Part shown: positions 21,483-35,178 of the stretch, in pieces
Layout of the letters: every line of letters begins with the position of its first letter
Position numbering within the stretch: the first letter of the stretch is position 1
From: Chitinophagales bacterium
GTDB taxonomy: Bacteria; Bacteroidota; Bacteroidia; Chitinophagales; UBA2359
NCBI GenBank assembly: GCA_016787295.1
Contig: JAEUUX010000237.1
Coordinates: 1 to 35,178, forward strand
Direction of reading: 5' to 3'
Length of the DNA stretch: 35,178 bases
The notes under the pieces: model-generated
The model's input: the letters and a program-made list of their open reading frames with translations, nothing else
Told to the model about the DNA's origin: nothing
The model's database searches: none
Made by a program: the position numbers and the translations under genes

Positions 21483-24137
21483 TTAGGATTTTTGATTACT
21501 CAAGTCGTTGTTTTCCAATACACTTCGAACGCGCTTTTGTACCAACAAATCACCTTGTTGAATCATTTGTCGCAAAACGGCATTTTCGTCTATAGTACAC
21601 AATTTCTCGAAGGTATTGAGTTGATTGAGGTAGGCTATTTTTCCTATGGCAGTCTCAAAAAGGTCGCGCGTGGCAACAGTCCAGCGATTGACCGTAAGGT
21701 CGATAAGTACTGTCAGAGCTTTTTCGGAGCGCATTATTTGGGTCATCAATTTGTTGCCGCAAGGCACAATACTGTCTCCTATTTTAAGGTGTTTTGAAAA
21801 GCGAATATTGAGCGCTGCGGTCACATATTTGCGAGCGGCACTAGCAATTTGTCCGCGCTGTATGTCGGGATGATAGGCTGCTCGCACAAAAATAGTGGTC
21901 AAAAGTTTATCATTTTTAAGCAGATTCTCGGCAGCCGCGCGACGTACCCAACGTTTAACGCGCAAATCAAATACGGCTATTTGCGCCGATTCGATGTCTC
22001 CATCTTTCATACTATATTCCACGTCAATGCCATATTGTTGGAAACGTTGTTTGAAAGCATTGGGATAGCTGTGTTTTATCATTGCCAACATAGGCGCTAA
22101 ACCGCGTCCGCCTCCCGCAAACTGTATAAAACCGTATGAAAAAATGGCGCGGTCATAGCTATTAATCGCATCAAAATTACCTTCGTGTTCCGAAACATAT
22201 TGTAATGCTTTGGCTTGTGTACGATTCAGACCAAAATTTTCGTATTCTTTGAGTGACAGACTTGTGGGCAAAACGTTACCAATAATGCTCACCCCACCCA
22301 AATCAACCGTATAAGGCGTGCGTTGTAAGTTCCGAAATTTACACGTTTGAGGTGCGCTGCCAACCATAAAATTAGCCGTATATTCTGCCATCGCCTTCAA
22401 AATATTATAGGTCAAATCGGTTTCGTTCATGCCAACAAGCCCATCAATATAGGTAGTACTACCTGTCACATCACGATTGCCACGCCAATAATCGACACGC
22501 GAGTCTTGGAACTGTCGAATAGCTGCAATAGTCTGGGGCAACCGCAAGGGGTCGATAGGCAATTGTTCGGTCGGAGCAGGTGTTTCGTTATTGCTGATAC
22601 TATAGCCCCACAGACGCAAAGCTTGTTGCACTTTTCGCACATCAGCTACTTTGTTGCCAAAATTGGTATTGCCCACAGATCCCGTCAAACCTTCACTGAA
22701 AATAATTTGCGCACTTTTCTCTTCCACAATAAGCGTGCTACGGGCGGCAGCAACGGTGTCCGATTGTGGCATTTCGGCAACAGTATTGAGATACATCAGA
22801 GAATGACTGTTAGGCAAAATAATAGCGATATTAGTATCTATATCCGCAACAATTTGGTTAAAATTGGTAATCGCAGCAATGGTATGTACTATTTGTTGAG
22901 CAGAGATGGGAGAACTATTATCGGCGGATAATTCCTGCTGGTGGTCTTCGGGCGAAAGAAAACCGCTTCGAAGCAAAGCATTTTGGATAATTCGCACATC
23001 ATTGCTCCTATTTATGCCACCTTGCCCTACCGAATAACTAATCTGGGCGCGGTCAAAAGCAAAAACCAAAGCAGGCATTGTCAATGGTTGAGCAGTAGTA
23101 GGTGGTGGTACGGTAGGAGCAGGCGAAGGAGTAGTGGTATTATTGTTAGTAGTATTTTTTTGATAACCAACAATCAATTTTTGCCCAATTAACAAACCAA
23201 CTTGCGCATTTTTGAGTTTGTTCCAACGCACCAAATCATCAACGCTCACGCCTTTTTTCTTTGCCACTAAACCCAAACTGTCACCCGATACAACCATATA
23301 ATAGATGGGAGTTTGTGTTGCAGGAGGTGGTGTTGGTGGTGTACTTGTGGTAGTATTAGTGGTATTTTTTTGATAACCAACAATCAATTTTTGCCCAATT
23401 AACAAGCCAACTTGCGCATTTTTGAGTTTGTTCCAACGCACCAAATCATCAACGCTTACGCCTTTTTTCTTTGCCACCAAACCCAAACTGTCACCCGATA
23501 CAACCATATAATAGATGGGAGTTTGCTGAACAGAAGTGGTAGTGTTAGATGGTGTTGGTGGTGCAGCAGGAACGGTGGTGGTAGCTGGAATTTTCAAGAT
23601 TTGCCCCACATGAATAACATTGCTATCGAGTTTATTGATGCGTTTAATGGCATCAACCGTCACATTGAATTTATTAGCAATTTTAGACAAACTATCACCC
23701 GACCGAACAGTATAATAGGTAGCACCTCCACCGCTTCTTTCGCTGATATGCCGCTCTTCCCAAACATTGACTTCGGGCAACTCGACTCCCGTTTCCACCG
23801 CAATAGGATACATCTCGTTGGCTTCGGGTTCATAAATAGGGATATTTTCGTCTACATTATACACTTCTATGCTTCTCTCGTCAATGCAATCCGCTATTTC
23901 AGGCACATTTTCTTCGCTAACAGTAGACAAAACAAGTTCCTGTCCTACACGAAGCGTATAGGAAGCGAGGTGGTTATCAAACATAATTTGCTGATAAGTA
24001 ATGCCAAATTTTTGTGCAATACTATTGAGAGAATCATAAGGAAGGACGGTATATAGCCGCATATTGTCGTAGATTAGTGGATAGGAGAAGCGGGGAATTA
24101 TTGAGGGAATAGGTGGAGGTGATGGGTTGTTGACCAT
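21483..24137 (-). CDS. LysM / peptidoglycan-binding-like / lysozyme-fold protein
   Basis: This 884-aa modular protein has four LysM domains: about 27-70 (degenerate), 141-183, 209-254 and 279-324. They are joined by Thr/Pro/Asn-rich linkers. Two peptidoglycan-binding-like helices follow (RSNDVRIIQNALLRSGFL at 377-394, ADVRKVQQALRLWGY at 498-512). The domain at about 640-780 resembles lysozyme-superfamily cores: VSEHEGNFDAINSYD with a candidate catalytic Glu650 or Glu652, then FSYGFIQFAGG at 666-676. The last 100 residues are helical. No signal peptide is visible from either ATG (24137 or 24062), which is odd for a wall-acting enzyme. The start at 24062 (MRLYTVLPYDSL) removes the 40-base overlap with the DUF4435 gene and begins directly at the first LysM. 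A T6SS/phage-tail-like or lysis-dependent release is possible. Confidence 0.88.
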   Translation of the reverse strand: MVNNPSPPPIPSIIPRFSYPLIYDNMRLYTVLPYDSLNSIAQKFGITYQQIMFDNHLASYTLRVGQELVLSTVSEENVPEIADCIDERSIEVYNVDENIPIYEPEANEMYPIAVETGVELPEVNVWEERHISERSGGGATYYTVRSGDSLSKIANKFNVTVDAIKRINKLDSNVIHVGQILKIPATTTVPAAPPTPSNTTTSVQQTPIYYMVVSGDSLGLVAKKKGVSVDDLVRWNKLKNAQVGLLIGQKLIVGYQKNTTNTTTSTPPTPPPATQTPIYYMVVSGDSLGLVAKKKGVSVDDLVRWNKLKNAQVGLLIGQKLIVGYQKNTTNNNTTTPSPAPTVPPPTTAQPLTMPALVFAFDRAQISYSVGQGGINRSNDVRIIQNALLRSGFLSPEDHQQELSADNSSPISAQQIVHTIAAITNFNQIVADIDTNIAIILPNSHSLMYLNTVAEMPQSDTVAAARSTLIVEEKSAQIIFSEGLTGSVGNTNFGNKVADVRKVQQALRLWGYSISNNETPAPTEQLPIDPLRLPQTIAAIRQFQDSRVDYWRGNRDVTGSTTYIDGLVGMNETDLTYNILKAMAEYTANFMVGSAPQTCKFRNLQRTPYTVDLGGVSIIGNVLPTSLSLKEYENFGLNRTQAKALQYVSEHEGNFDAINSYDRAIFSYGFIQFAGGGRGLAPMLAMIKHSYPNAFKQRFQQYGIDVEYSMKDGDIESAQIAVFDLRVKRWVRRAAAENLLKNDKLLTTIFVRAAYHPDIQRGQIASAARKYVTAALNIRFSKHLKIGDSIVPCGNKLMTQIMRSEKALTVLIDLTVNRWTVATRDLFETAIGKIAYLNQLNTFEKLCTIDENAVLRQMIQQGDLLVQKRVRSVLENNDLSNQKS
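23145..23315 (-). repeat. LysM-encoding tandem duplication, second copy
   Basis: This 171-base segment encodes residues 275-331 of the LysM protein. It is identical in protein sequence to the segment 210 bases away, with only three silent base differences seen by eye (near 23191, 23250 and 23268). Confidence 0.85.
23355..23525 (-). repeat. LysM-encoding tandem duplication, first copy
   Basis: This is the partner of the segment at 23145-23315. It encodes residues 205-261. The Thr/Pro linkers between the copies differ, so the repeated unit is the LysM domain plus a short flank. The near-identity suggests a recent duplication or gene conversion. Confidence 0.85.
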
Positions 24138-27106: not shown

Positions 27107-27670
27107 TTATAGTGATAACAATGGATAATAGCGATCTTTAACAACAGCCAAATGGTGCATCAAATGTCCAACAATGATAAAACCCAAAGCAACCACCGAC
27201 ATTTCATGGTTTGAGCAAATACCGGTGCGCAACATAGTAGTTTCGTCAAATTGTCGAAACATAATCCAAGTAGACTCTCGCACATAGCCCAATTCTTCAA
27301 ACAAATCATCTATGCTACGATGTTGTGTTGGGGCGACATTGGCATAGCTATCCTCGTCAAAACCCGGCAAAGGTGTTTTGTCGTTCCGTGCCAAACGCAA
27401 GGCGCGATAAGCAAAAATGCGTTCGGCATCAATAATATGCTGCAAAATAGCACGCACAGTCCACTTGTCGGGAGCATACACATGGTCACCCAACGCCACA
27501 AGTTGCGAACGTTCAGACAACAGCATCGCCACACCCGTTTCCTGCAAAGCCGTCAGAAGGTCTTGGTCAGGTGCTTGTTCGATGTAGCGTTGATAATAGG
27601 AAGGCACCACAGCAATTTGACTCTTATTCATGTTTTCAATCATTTTTTTAAGATAAAAACACCATTCCAT
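27107..27670 (-). CDS. DinB family protein (YfiT/DinB-like metal-binding four-helix bundle)
   Basis: The protein belongs to the DinB/YfiT superfamily of four-helix bundles with a three-His metal site, which includes bacillithiol- or mycothiol-dependent transferases and damage-inducible proteins of unknown activity. The site is His78 in RAILQHIIDAERIFAYR, then His169 and His173 in GHLMHHLAVVKDRY. DKWTVRAILQH is typical of the family's first half. The length fits. In-frame ATGs at 27670, 27643 and 27631 are all possible; the last (MNKSQIAVVPSYY) looks most natural. It is upstream of infC on the same strand. Its promoter region runs into the GC-rich repeat. Confidence 0.9.
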   Translation of the reverse strand: MEWCFYLKKMIENMNKSQIAVVPSYYQRYIEQAPDQDLLTALQETGVAMLLSERSQLVALGDHVYAPDKWTVRAILQHIIDAERIFAYRALRLARNDKTPLPGFDEDSYANVAPTQHRSIDDLFEELGYVRESTWIMFRQFDETTMLRTGICSNHEMSVVALGFIIVGHLMHHLAVVKDRYYPLLSL

Positions 27671-27715
27671 CGATGAATTGGTTATTTTTTAAAAAAAATG
27701 TGGTTATTATTTTTT

Positions 27716-27830
27716 GGGCGTTTCCCTTACGGGTCGGGCTTTACGGGGCTTCGCTAACGCTTCGGTGCAAGCACCAGCCTAACGGCTGCCCCTACAATCC
27801 CTAACGCGCTTCGCCCCGCAAACTTGTGTC
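27716..27830. repeat. GC-rich branched palindromic intergenic element
   Basis: This is a sharply GC-rich block in AT-rich surroundings. It folds as nested stems: GCGTT (27718-27722) with AACGC (27803-27807), and GGGGC (27745-27749) with GCCCC (27788-27792). Inside these are two hairpins, GGTGC-AA-GCACC (27764-27775) and AGCC-TAAC-GGCT (27776-27787). GCTTCG occurs three times in direct orientation. The opening GGGCGTTTCCC...GGGTCGGGC and the CCCTAACGC near the right end resemble a REP-like element I recall from many Bacteroidota intergenic regions. Confidence 0.6.
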
Positions 27831-27843
27831 CATAGTATTTTTT

Positions 27844-27865
27844 AATGGCGGCTACGCCGACCATT
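27844..27865. terminator. Hairpin downstream of the SBBP protein gene
   Basis: AATGGCGGC and GCCGACCATT form a 9-bp stem with one bulged A and a TAC loop. On the minus strand it lies 48 bases after the SBBP gene stop and is followed by AAAAAATAC rather than a T-run, so it may be part of the repeat element instead of a true terminator. Confidence 0.4.
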
Positions 27866-27912
27866 TCACCTATATTCAGTATGTACACAACCCTGCTAAT
27901 ATGCCCTTTTAT

Positions 27913-30900
27913 TTACGGATTAGTTTGAGTAATACTCACCGTTCCTACTGTTCCTGATGACCATTGAACAGTAATGCTCGCTCCTGTGTTACTCCCTATG
28001 ATTGTACCACCACTACTCACCGTCCAAAGGTAGGTATTACCTGCCACTGGCGTAACGCTGTAGGTATATGTATAAGGCGCTCCAGTACAAACTGCCGTAG
28101 CTCCTGTAATAGCAGGCGTTGGGCTGGCATCCACCACCACAGGCACGTTGATAGTCGCACTACAACTACCACTATTCCATTGCAATGTATAGTTTTTCGT
28201 ACCAACAGTAGTAGGAGTCACCGTTACAGTAGTATCGGTTGCCAAAACAGTATTGCCGTCTTTCCAGCGGAATGTTCCCAAAGTAGCTCCCGAAACACTC
28301 AACACCAACGGATTGTTGGCACAAACACTCGGATTAGCAGGACTTATCACCAAACTTGGCACGGTTTCGGTGCATTTACGAACGGTGGCATCGGCTTGTG
28401 TCGCAGTTGTCACAAAACCAGCCGTATAGATATGGTTAGTATTGCTGGCACTAAAAACAGCTATGTCCTCGCCGCTGTCATCAAACAAATTTAGATTCAA
28501 AGCATCATAGCTATCACTCCAAAGAATGGCTCCATCTTTGCCTTTGAGTTTCATAACAAGGTAATTATCATTGCCTGCATTGGGTTCGGAGCGCCCTGTT
28601 ATCCACACATTACCCGCACAATCTACTCCAATAGCATTGGCTTGGTCAAAGCCTGTGCCAGAATCATAAATACGTTGCCATTGTTGCACACCTGCGCCGT
28701 TGTATTTAATCACCAACACATTGTCATCAACACCATCGTTGTTTTGTCCTGCCACATACACCATTCCCAAACTGTCAATAGCTATGTCATAAATGCGGTC
28801 GTTGCCTGTGTTGCTATAGACCTGCGCCCACTGTTGTGTACCTGTCGCATTGTAGCGAATTGTTACAGCATCATCTATCCCGTTGGCACTGGTACGTCCG
28901 CCTACTACTACTATACCGTTCAACACAGCAATAGCATCGCCACGGTCATCACCGGTCGTTGTGCCATAGTTGGCTGTCCAGGCTTGAGTACCTGTTAGGC
29001 TATATTTGAGCGTCAAAATATTTTCGGTTGCACCCACCACACTTCGTCCTGTGATATAGACACCATTAGCATCGCCGGTCATTGCCTCGGGACGGTCACT
29101 GCCATTAGCGGCTCCATTGTAGATTTGCGCCCATTGTTGTATGCCAGAACTATTGTATTTGGCAGTCACTATATTGTAGTTGCTATTGGACGAGGCATCA
29201 ACGTCGGTGCGTCCTGTCACATATACACCTCCTGCGGCATCAATATATAGCGCTATGGCTTCGTCAAATTCATCAGCTGCATTATTATACGTCTGAATCC
29301 ATTGGAAAACACCCGCGGCATTGTATTTGAGCAAAGCAAAATTTTCGTCGGTTGTACCCGCCACATAAACATTACCTGTTGCATCAACCCCCACATCGTT
29401 GGCTTCGTCCATTGGGTTGTCGTTAGGTATACTATTATAAGTATTAGTCCAAGCTAAAGTACCATTGGCATTATATTTGGTAATTAACATATCGCGCGCT
29501 TGGTCAGTATTGAACGAATAACCTACAGCATATACGTTGCCTTGTGCATCGGTAATAATACGGCGATATTTGTCGGTATTGTCCCCTTGTCCGTTGTAGC
29601 GTGCAAACCATTGTTGTGTGCCACTATTGTTGTATTTGATAACCAACAAATCGTTTTGGGTGGTACTATAGCCAAAACCTGTAGTATAAACGTTGCCAGA
29701 GGCATCAATCACAATGTTGCGTCCTTCGTCGTTGTCATTGCCAACTTCGGCATAGATTTGCGCCCAAGCGGTTGTACCTGTAGCACTAATTTTAAAGGTC
29801 AATACATCACCAATGGAATCGGTGGGTGTGTATGTAACCGTTTTGCCTGCCAAGTAGCAATTACCATTAGCATCAATAGCCATATCGTAAGGACGGTCTT
29901 CCTTGCCTGCATTGTCATAGCTATGCAACCATTGTTGTGTGCCTGCGCTGTTGTATTTGATAGTCACTACATTATAAATAGCTGTTGCTGCCGACTCCGA
30001 CCTGCCCGATACAAACACATTACCCGAAGCATCGACTTTGATTTCAGATGCTCGGTCGTCTTGCAGACCATTGTATAGTTTTGACCACACTACAGTGCCT
30101 GCCAAATCGTATTTAATGGTAACATAATCGTCGTCGGAGGTTGTTGAGGCATATTCACCGCACAAATAAAAATTATTGCCCACTACTTCAATATGGTAAG
30201 CAATGTCTTGTCCATTGCCACTGTCAATTCGTTTATTGAATTGTACAACACCACTCGAATTATATTTGACCGTCAAAATATCTTCGTCTCCATTAGTTCC
30301 AAAGCTACTACCTGTGACATAGATATTTCCAGAGGCATCAACCCCTAAATCGTTCACCAAATCCTCAGCATTACCTGTGCCGTTGTAGGTTTGTGACCAA
30401 AGCAAAGTACCCGAAGTATTGTATTTAGCAATAGCATAATCATAGTTGGTGACTGTGGAAGCGTCGCTGTCCGATTTTCCGCCGATGATGATGTTGCCTG
30501 ATGGGTCTATGACGATACTGTTGGCTTCGTCAAAACCGTTGGCAGCGCCATTCCATTGGCGTGACCAAAGCGTGTCACCCGCTGGCGATAATTTAAGCAA
30601 CAACATATTGCGGTCGCCAAGCCCTGCAACAAACACGTTACCGTTGGCATCTAAGGCAATGGCTTTACCTTCATCAGTATTGTCGCTACCTGTGTTGAAA
30701 GTTCGTTGCCACGACACTGAGCCTGTTGGCGTATATTTGACCGCTACTATATCGCGCCCATTATCGGCGCGGAAGCTATAGCCTGTCGTATACAAATTAC
30801 CTGTTGCATCAAGAACGGCTGCATTGCCGCGGTCTTCATTTTCGGTAGTACCATTATAGGTATCTGTCCATGCAACAGTTTGTGCAAAAAGGGAATGGGA

Positions 30901-30960
30901 AAGAAAAATGCAAGATAATGATAGGGAAAGCAAAAAAATGGTTCTGCTTTTCATTAACAA
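27913..30960 (-). CDS. Secreted SBBP-repeat beta-propeller protein with C-terminal Ig/PKD-like domains, no sorting domain
   Basis: The signal peptide covers about residues 1-26 (core IFLLSLSLSCIFLSHSLFA). Residues about 28-850 contain some 15 SBBP repeats of 50-60 residues, recognised by D-x-x-G-N-V-Y-V-A/T-G turns (GVDASGNIYVTG, AIDANGNCYLAG, GVDATGNVYVAG) alternating with KYN-x-x-G-x-Q-Q-W strands. Two Ig/PKD-like domains follow: ISPANPSVCANNPLVLSVSG and PAITGATAVCTGAPYTYTYS. The frame then stops right after SGTVGTVSITQTNP. In related proteins this is normally followed by more domains and a T9SS sorting domain, so the 3' end looks cut. No continuation appears in the other frames. A GC-rich repeat lies just beyond. 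It may still be exported to the periplasm by Sec. Confidence 0.88.
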   Translation of the reverse strand: MLMKSRTIFLLSLSLSCIFLSHSLFAQTVAWTDTYNGTTENEDRGNAAVLDATGNLYTTGYSFRADNGRDIVAVKYTPTGSVSWQRTFNTGSDNTDEGKAIALDANGNVFVAGLGDRNMLLLKLSPAGDTLWSRQWNGAANGFDEANSIVIDPSGNIIIGGKSDSDASTVTNYDYAIAKYNTSGTLLWSQTYNGTGNAEDLVNDLGVDASGNIYVTGSSFGTNGDEDILTVKYNSSGVVQFNKRIDSGNGQDIAYHIEVVGNNFYLCGEYASTTSDDDYVTIKYDLAGTVVWSKLYNGLQDDRASEIKVDASGNVFVSGRSESAATAIYNVVTIKYNSAGTQQWLHSYDNAGKEDRPYDMAIDANGNCYLAGKTVTYTPTDSIGDVLTFKISATGTTAWAQIYAEVGNDNDEGRNIVIDASGNVYTTGFGYSTTQNDLLVIKYNNSGTQQWFARYNGQGDNTDKYRRIITDAQGNVYAVGYSFNTDQARDMLITKYNANGTLAWTNTYNSIPNDNPMDEANDVGVDATGNVYVAGTTDENFALLKYNAAGVFQWIQTYNNAADEFDEAIALYIDAAGGVYVTGRTDVDASSNSNYNIVTAKYNSSGIQQWAQIYNGAANGSDRPEAMTGDANGVYITGRSVVGATENILTLKYSLTGTQAWTANYGTTTGDDRGDAIAVLNGIVVVGGRTSANGIDDAVTIRYNATGTQQWAQVYSNTGNDRIYDIAIDSLGMVYVAGQNNDGVDDNVLVIKYNGAGVQQWQRIYDSGTGFDQANAIGVDCAGNVWITGRSEPNAGNDNYLVMKLKGKDGAILWSDSYDALNLNLFDDSGEDIAVFSASNTNHIYTAGFVTTATQADATVRKCTETVPSLVISPANPSVCANNPLVLSVSGATLGTFRWKDGNTVLATDTTVTVTPTTVGTKNYTLQWNSGSCSATINVPVVVDASPTPAITGATAVCTGAPYTYTYSVTPVAGNTYLWTVSSGGTIIGSNTGASITVQWSSGTVGTVSITQTNP

Positions 30961-34407: not shown

Positions 34408-35178
34408 ATGAGAAGAAAATTATTATTAACCTTAGTTTTGCTTTGTTCCATCGGTACAACGGTTTGGGCAGGCAATAACAAAGATGGTACAAGGGAAAAC
34501 AATTCATCGGAAACGTCTTTATTAGGCGGTGCAACAAAACATGCACTATCTATAAATGGCAATCCCACATTGATAGGACTACCCGCACCTATAGGTACGG
34601 TAGCCTTAGATATTGGAACCGATAATTCCTTGTACATGAAAGTAGGGGTAGGAGACAAAGACTGGACACAAATCCCTGTCTTAGAGCTTTCTAACACCTT
34701 TACTAACGACGGACTACTCCTAGCAGCAACTACGCCGGCAGGCGGTGGTGGTGGCTCAACTGCTGTAACCGGCGGTGGCGGAGCAACTGGCTCAACAGCT
34801 TCTACAGCAGCAACAGGCGGTGGCGGAGCAACTGGCTCAACAGCTTCTACAGCAGCAACAGGCGGTGGCGGTACTGGCTCAACAGCTTCTACAGCAGCAA
34901 CAGGCGGTGGCGGTACTGGCTCAACAGCATCTACAGCAGCAACAGGCGGTGGCGGTACTGGCTCAACGGCTTCTACTGGTGCAACCGGCGGTAGCGGTGG
35001 CGGTACTGGCTCAACGGCTTCTACTGGTGCAACCGGCGGTAGCGGTGGCGGTACAACAGCTTCTACTGGCTCAACAGGCGGTAGCGGTGGCGGTACTGGC
35101 TCAACGGCTTCTACTGGTGCAACCGGCGGTAGCGGTGGCGGTACTGGCTCAACAGCTTCTACTGGCTCAACAGGCGGT
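34408..35178 (+). CDS. Secreted Gly/Ser/Thr/Ala-repeat protein, 3' end outside the window
   Basis: Translation from the ATG at 34408 stays open to the window edge (257 codons). MRRKLLLTLVLLCSIGTTVWA is a clear signal peptide, cleaved before GNNKDG. Residues about 40-110 form a short non-repetitive domain (LSINGNPTLIGLPAPIGTVA, YMKVGVGDKDWTQIPVLELS). From residue 112 it becomes a low-complexity repeat of GGGGTGSTASTAAT-type units of 14 residues, turning into 16-residue units (GGSGGGTGSTASTGAT) near the edge. The domain before the repeat resembles the start of Bacteroidota collagen-like or tail-fibre-like surface proteins, but that is a guess. The repeat probably forms a flexible stalk, and a sorting or adhesive domain may lie beyond the edge. 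Confidence 0.72.
   Translation, partial: MRRKLLLTLVLLCSIGTTVWAGNNKDGTRENNSSETSLLGGATKHALSINGNPTLIGLPAPIGTVALDIGTDNSLYMKVGVGDKDWTQIPVLELSNTFTNDGLLLAATTPAGGGGGSTAVTGGGGATGSTASTAATGGGGATGSTASTAATGGGGTGSTASTAATGGGGTGSTASTAATGGGGTGSTASTGATGGSGGGTGSTASTGATGGSGGGTTASTGSTGGSGGGTGSTASTGATGGSGGGTGSTASTGSTGG
34741..35178 (+). repeat. In-frame tandem repeats of 42 and 48 bases
   Basis: Units of 42 bases (14 codons: GGC GGT GGC GGT ACT GGC TCA, then ACA GCT TCT ACA GCA GCA ACA) give way to units of about 48 bases in which AGC GGT is inserted and the end becomes ACT GGT GCA ACC. The copies are almost identical, and the array runs beyond the window. It is prone to slippage and to assembly collapse. Confidence 0.9.

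Follow-up and report, generated by a model that had tools for sequence, protein, structure and literature searches.

The window, meaning the whole stretch of 35,178 nucleotides that was analyzed, is the entire contig C180 of a 5.42-Mb draft genome in 296 contigs from a Chitinophagales bacterium. Two of its minus-strand genes, one encoding an SBBP/Ig_7/PKD_6 protein (27913 to 30960) and one of the DinB_2 family (27107 to 27670), enclose a GC-rich structured element on the same strand, with the SBBP gene upstream (5′) and the DinB_2 gene downstream (3′). The first-pass annotation had described a nested multi-stem block and a separate bulged hairpin, sitting exactly where a large gene appeared to be cut. 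The SBBP/PKD open reading frame (ORF) ends ~98 bp from the core of the element, and the last PKD_6 match in it spans positions 5 to 70 of the 82 in the profile, stopping at residue 1014 of 1015. Such a profile end would fit a truncated ORF but is no proof of one, and the suspected cutting of the gene was not demonstrated.

Structure of the element

The core is a nested, branched figure of ~100 nt on the minus strand at 27716 to 27815. From 27815 to 27716, the element strand reads GGCGAAGC-GCGTT-A-GGG-ATTGTA-GGGGC-(three hairpins)-GCCCC-GTAAA-G-CCC-GA-CCC-GTAA-GGG-A-AACGC-CC, followed at 27715 to 27710 by an A-run that is present in most sampled copies. When the core (27815 to 27713) was folded alone as single-stranded DNA, the GGCGAAGC leader was followed by P1, the outer stem, which covaries within the family (GCGTT at 27803 to 27807 with AACGC at 27718 to 27722), P2 (GGG/CCC), P3 (GGGGC/GCCCC), and the P7 hairpin CCC-GTAA-GGG (27724 to 27733). 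P3 encloses the hairpins AGCC-GTTA-GGCT, GGTG-CTTG-CACC, and GC-GTTA-GC to form the apex (27745 to 27792), in which three pairs showed both-sided changes in an alignment of 30 copies from the same genome. An intrinsic terminator was considered, and on inspection the element strand was seen to carry A residues, not T, in the run that follows the core.

A linker containing an A-run (27816 to 27843) separates the core from accessory hairpin B (27844 to 27865), which reads AATGGTCGGCGTAGCCGCCATT along the element strand. This is the separate bulged hairpin noted earlier, and it proved to be a recurrent part of the element, as 18 of the 79 sampled copies have a hairpin of the B type and an A-run upstream of the core. 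The window copy is a type I core with accessory hairpin B.

As RNA, the minus strand of 27700 to 27880 gave a fold that beat 200 of 200 shuffles (z = −3.51), and the plus strand of the region was no better than shuffles (z = 0.02). The DNA folds were unremarkable (z = −0.37 for the plus strand, −1.36 for the minus strand, and −0.58 for the core alone), and the minimum-energy RNA fold of the core used pairs that partly differ from the nested single-stranded DNA figure. Folding energy alone was therefore insufficient, and the case for a structured element is carried by repetition and covariation. Mismatches over the 79 sampled copies comprised 101 G-T and 23 A-C cells, although 79 of the G-T cells belong to one invariant, dubious model pair, without which the counts are 22 versus 23. 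Taken with the single-stranded DNA fold, the repetition and covariation bear out the GC-rich nested block as real and as a feature of the minus strand.

Copy number and genomic placement

BLAST of the element against its own genome produced a match for all 40 of the sequences scored (best 40 of 265 candidates), and a model built from 30 own-genome copies (R1) returned at least 150 matches. The search with R2 found 79 copies in 1,217,329 bases, corresponding to an estimated 352 (about 350) per genome; this value may run high, since the sampled stretches were long contigs, many of them already known to carry copies, and may also run low, since some copies lie at contig ends. The exact scaffold pattern was matched 204 times in the whole genome and its reversed control not at all. 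The copies fall into two main types with a common scaffold and branched topology, whose stem letters differ yet still pair. Copies or pieces of the MITE described below lie at, or within ~20 bases of, the ends of contigs C9, C162, C40, C225, C263, and C264, and the repeat therefore probably breaks the genome assembly.

According to our own gene calls, 76 of the 79 copies are intergenic in DNA that is 85% coding. For the 75 copies with both neighbors, the spacers were convergent in 28 cases, tandem sense in 24, tandem antisense in 16, and divergent in 7. Convergent spacers were over-used (P = 2e-4) and divergent spacers under-used (P = 1e-3), and within tandem spacers the preference for sense or antisense was not significant (P = 0.27). 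Among 45 distinct copies from other genomes, for which the gene calls were rough, 10 lay within ORFs and 2 of the 34 placeable ones were in divergent spacers.

Relationship to Flavo-1 and covariation of P1

Of 296 genomes from the phylum of the window, inferred to be Bacteroidota, 39 contained a pattern for the scaffold, AGGGAT..AGCCCGACCC, with a second-highest count of 26 (G173). The reversed control gave one match in one of the 296 genomes among the matches listed. The ends of P1 in these relatives include GCGTT/AACGC, GCGTG/CACGC, GCATG/CATGC, GCATT/AATGC, GCGTA/TACGC, GCAAT/ATTGC, and GGCTT/AAGCC, and the apices vary widely. P1 was measured in 29 relatives, of which 25 were retained as alignment A3; the others were dropped for a partner lacking the usual CC (L078), only four of five pairs (L097), or no good partner (L100 and L101). 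In A3, 98.6% of the cells are paired, and both-sided changes, including those in P1, were counted in six pairs and 30 cells. This count is favorable because the partners of P1 had been selected for complementarity and 4 of the 29 loci were dropped. None of 500 shuffles reached any of the five measures, and sliding by one to three columns reduced pairing to 24 to 50%.

The covariance model R3 was built from the 25 A3 elements, which come from other genomes of the phylum, with no sequence of the own genome. In a 421-kb own-genome sample it recovered 26 of 26 R1 copies at E ≤ 5e-4, with one extra match at E = 0.89. The window copy scored 61.8 bits (27713 to 27811), part of which is built in because the R3 seeds were obtained via a pattern from own-genome copies. 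R3 matched in 46 of the 296 genomes, with at most the best 13 candidates taken per genome. Within the family of the host, R1 matched in just 2 of 19 other genomes, once in each, and the copy expansion therefore looks local. The REP-like repeat of the first-pass annotation is clearly neither single-copy nor unconserved: it is multicopy, intergenic, and conserved elsewhere.

At gathering thresholds, Rfam assigned no family to the window copy. The scaffold resembles the Flavo-1 RNA motif (RF01705), which Weinberg et al. (2010) list as a Bacteroidetes RNA of no known function (PMC2864571); the passages on Flavo-1 in PMC2864571, PMC9029176, and PMC9723704 state no function or mobility. Among the publications listed in a literature search, none named the window element, and no paper containing “Flavo-1 RNA” was found. 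The window copy did not reach the RF01705 gathering cutoff of 42 bits. In its genome, the 13 weak RF01705 matches at E ≤ 10 all stayed under the cutoff, and locus L001 had no match at E ≤ 1. A permissive search of 12 loci placed four over the cutoff (L103, L086, L094, and L089) and three below it (L085, L074, and L097), and five were without a match (L001, L054, L099, L100, and L101), including both own-genome loci, L001 and L054. The remaining four Rfam rows for these loci, all under the cutoff, were rliE twice, MIR4240, and REN-SRE.

A common scaffold is nonetheless evident, as the model that gives the window copy its R3 score was built from relatives that include the four loci passing RF01705. 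The window element shares with Flavo-1 the outer scaffold AGGGAT/AGCCC, P1, and P7. Unlike Flavo-1, its type has a four-stem branched apex and the GGCGAAGC leader, receives no score from RF01705, and exists as hundreds of near-identical copies within one genome. Judged by its scaffold, it is best described as a branched, high-copy sister of Flavo-1, and by the Rfam cutoff it is not a member.

The same gene pairs in relatives

For one gene pair in genus g30, convergent according to the stop codons, both flanks were available at 17 loci; three loci with one flank (L315, L317, and L318) were not counted. An R3 element was present in seven (G161, G237, G321, G331, G328, G335, and G315; L305 to L308, L313, L322, and L323) and absent from ten, and in 7 of the 10 empty loci the two genes are at most 15 bp apart. 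The apices read in the filled loci differ in type, and the orientation is identical in 7 of 7. At a second gene pair, G040 and G318 carry elements with the same position, orientation, and scaffold but different apices, and G319 has no element. These sites are compatible with insertion, loss, and apex exchange alike. The constant orientation favors either oriented insertion or an inherited element that changed its apex and was lost in places.

Occurrence outside the phylum

In the named genome collection, the type I pattern matched one record, a Treponema metagenome-assembled genome (MAG) with P1 GCGTT/AACGC; this case needs confirming because a MAG may include foreign contigs. BLAST matched two Microcystis aeruginosa plasmids (75% identity, 76% query coverage), in which P1 is GCGCG/CGCGC and a segment of the apex is similar, and a search from these matches reached a Hymenobacter plasmid. 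The R3 scores were 37.0 bits for Treponema, 26.9 for Microcystis, and 23.7 for Hymenobacter. Viral contigs held at least 120 pattern stretches, a pattern estimated to be expected by chance in a collection that large; when 80 such stretches were searched with R3, 28 of them contained matches at E ≤ 1e-3 (33 in total). No relative of the carrier transposase described below was found in the viral contigs, and the window element had no match in phage records.

A MITE and an IS701-like carrier

Upstream of the core, the 79 copies carry hairpin B (18), both arms of a MITE (22), one arm (5), or neither hairpin B nor an arm (34); hairpin B and MITE arms never occur together. The MITE is a unit of ~226 bp that was found at 90 to 97% identity in at least 39 further places (best 40 of 293 candidates), most of which end near two common points. 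Exact 4-bp direct repeats flanked 5 of 14 copies checked (shuffle P = 0.023) and exact repeats of 2, 3, 5, 6, or 8 bp none of the 14; the 14 include two copies (C246 26268 and C246 84828) whose left end was misplaced by the end-finder and which were counted as misses. By eye, CTCG is present on both sides of C246 26268. A larger, interrupted MITE was observed at L155 11587 to 13154 (minus strand), consisting of a left arm with half a core, a complete MITE copy, ~1 kb without a long ORF, and a right arm.

On contig C252 (L346), a 1,776-bp carrier consists of the MITE left arm with a type II core (R3, 39.5 bits), a 499-amino-acid transposase ORF, and a final 34 nt that match the MITE right end exactly. 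Between the end of the core and the ATG of the transposase lie 24 nt. The transposase matched DDE_Tnp_1 and DDE_5, and its best NCBIfam row was an IS701 model, at 84.9 bits versus a cutoff of 170. This transposon had no exact 4-bp direct repeat, and arms were not found at the other two DDE_5 loci of the genome. The IS701-like DDE transposon is apparently the parent of the MITE, and as judged by the shared arms and ends, one class of copies spreads with it. Like MITEs of DDE insertion sequences (IS701/IS4 group), these 22 of 79 copies share their ends with a transposase element and the unit shows 4-bp direct repeats; unlike such MITEs, the structured core is a cargo that also exists without arms, as in the window. 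At the window copy, neither MITE arms nor inverted or direct repeats were recognized, and it thus lacks the terminal inverted repeats and target duplication of a MITE member; no surrounding inverted repeats were seen for its class, class B.

The sequence TTTG-N15..21-TAnnTTTG, which we take to be a Bacteroidota-type promoter consensus, occurs just upstream in 5 of 22 MITE copies, 1 of 5 one-armed copies, 0 of 18 class B copies, and 1 of 34 others. Within the carrier transposon, the element may have a leader role.

Y1 transposases

The first-pass annotation had suggested mobilization by a RAYT and a search for its gene. The own genome, 98% complete, gave no PF01797 (Y1_Tnp) match at E ≤ 0.01, and control genomes did match. 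Y1 genes were found in 202 of the 296 phylum genomes, in 36 of 46 R3-positive genomes versus 166 of 250 others (Fisher P = 0.12). In G068, a gene for a 148-amino-acid Y1 transposase lies ~200 bp away from the single element that R3 matched in that genome (L079 867 to 1313 and 1493 to 1633), the sole case of a Y1 gene beside an element noticed among the matches listed. REPs associated with RAYTs are described in PMC3733652 as palindromes of 20 to 40 nt with a GTAG or CGTC end. As in those REP and BIME elements, the window family combines high intergenic copy number, proximity to gene 3′ ends, and stems with compensatory changes (PMC3733652). Unlike them, its core is ~100 nt, inspection of the ends of 79 copies by eye revealed no GTAG- or CGTC-ended palindrome of 20 to 40 nt, and its host has no Y1 transposase. 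The proposed RAYT did not hold up; a DDE transposon carries one class instead.

Discussion

The element is present in hundreds of copies, its P1 covaries across genomes, it is intergenic with a bias to convergent gene ends, it is present or absent at the same gene pair, and one class resides in an IS701-like transposon and a MITE. We consider it most probable (about 60%) that this is a dispersed, noncoding, structured REP-like repeat of a Flavo-1 superfamily, with constant P1, P2, and P7 and a variable apex, which travels as a nonautonomous passenger and insulates transcription units. It would multiply in this genome through capture in DDE transposons, and free-standing copies such as that of the window may have spread by a second route or by gene conversion. 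Between genes it would be tolerated or kept because its fold, on the DNA or in read-through transcripts from either side, insulates neighboring transcription units; the element would thus act at the level of DNA or of transcript ends. It is probably no independent small RNA, and within its own genome it does not appear to be moved by a RAYT. Some observations count against this reading. The identical orientation at the g30 pair is also compatible with an element inherited from long ago that was lost in places and changed its apex, in place of repeated insertion; an RNA fold predicted on the minus strand only leans toward a strand-specific RNA; and the window copy has no recognized inverted or direct repeats that would indicate movement of this particular copy.

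That the element is instead a structured RNA, regulatory or small, that works in trans or serves as the leader of a neighboring gene, seems unlikely. Rfam files Flavo-1 as an sRNA gene, the stems covary, and the RNA fold is strand specific, all in keeping with such an RNA, as are the position of the transposon core before the transposase ATG and the promoter-like site upstream of some MITE copies. That site is, however, nearly absent from the other classes (0 of 18 class B and 1 of 34 other copies), and the copies have no clear strand preference relative to their neighbors, few being in divergent spacers. In the F. psychrophilum transcriptome, as far as it is described for Flavo-1 in PMC9723704, matches appear to lie in sense or antisense to transcribed regions without distinction, many of them outside. 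Although the strand-specific RNA fold points the opposite way, the placement and these data make a small RNA less likely than mere tolerance or a role at the DNA level or at transcript ends in both directions.

It is rather improbable that the element is simply part of a DDE transposon family, serving as leader in the IS701-like element and in the MITE, with all other copies as decayed remnants. The complete carrier on C252 and the at least 39 further MITE-like places at 90 to 97% identity fit this explanation, but both arms are missing from 52 of the 79 sampled copies (hairpin B is present in 18 of these and absent from 34), the stretches read around Flavo-1-like copies of other genomes contain no arms, and the complete carrier was seen once, the other two DDE_5 loci being armless. 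A REP or REPIN moved by an IS200/IS605-like Y1 transposase (RAYT) would suit the copy number, the placement, the G068 gene, and the commonness of Y1 in the phylum sample (202/296) but is very improbable with Y1_Tnp matches at E ≤ 0.01 in control genomes and none in the own genome, 10 of 46 element genomes without a Y1 match, no significant association, and no adjoining Y1 besides G068 among the matches listed.

As a REP-like dispersed repeat, the element allows Flavo-1, listed without a function since 2010, to be recast as part of a superfamily with a covarying scaffold, whose copies in this genome are missed by the Rfam model and for which the DDE transposon and MITE provide a concrete carrier. 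Annotating such copies as small-RNA genes would mislead, and, given the transposase-leader position, a function can be tested by experiment. More speculatively, and only tentatively, Flavo-1 and the branched window element may be one ancient, modular, selfish element with a fixed scaffold and exchangeable apices, which crosses phyla (Bacteroidota, the Treponema MAG, and cyanobacterial plasmids) and multiplies through capture in DDE transposase leaders, where its folded transcript might tune transposase output.

Two further repeats were observed in the window. A tandem array of 42- to 48-bp GC-rich units (ACTGGCTCAACAGCTTCTACTGG..GGCGGTGGCGGT) at 34786 to 35178 runs off the contig end, and at 23100 to 23525, within a long ORF, a 210-bp unit is repeated head to tail about twice with 89% ungapped identity.
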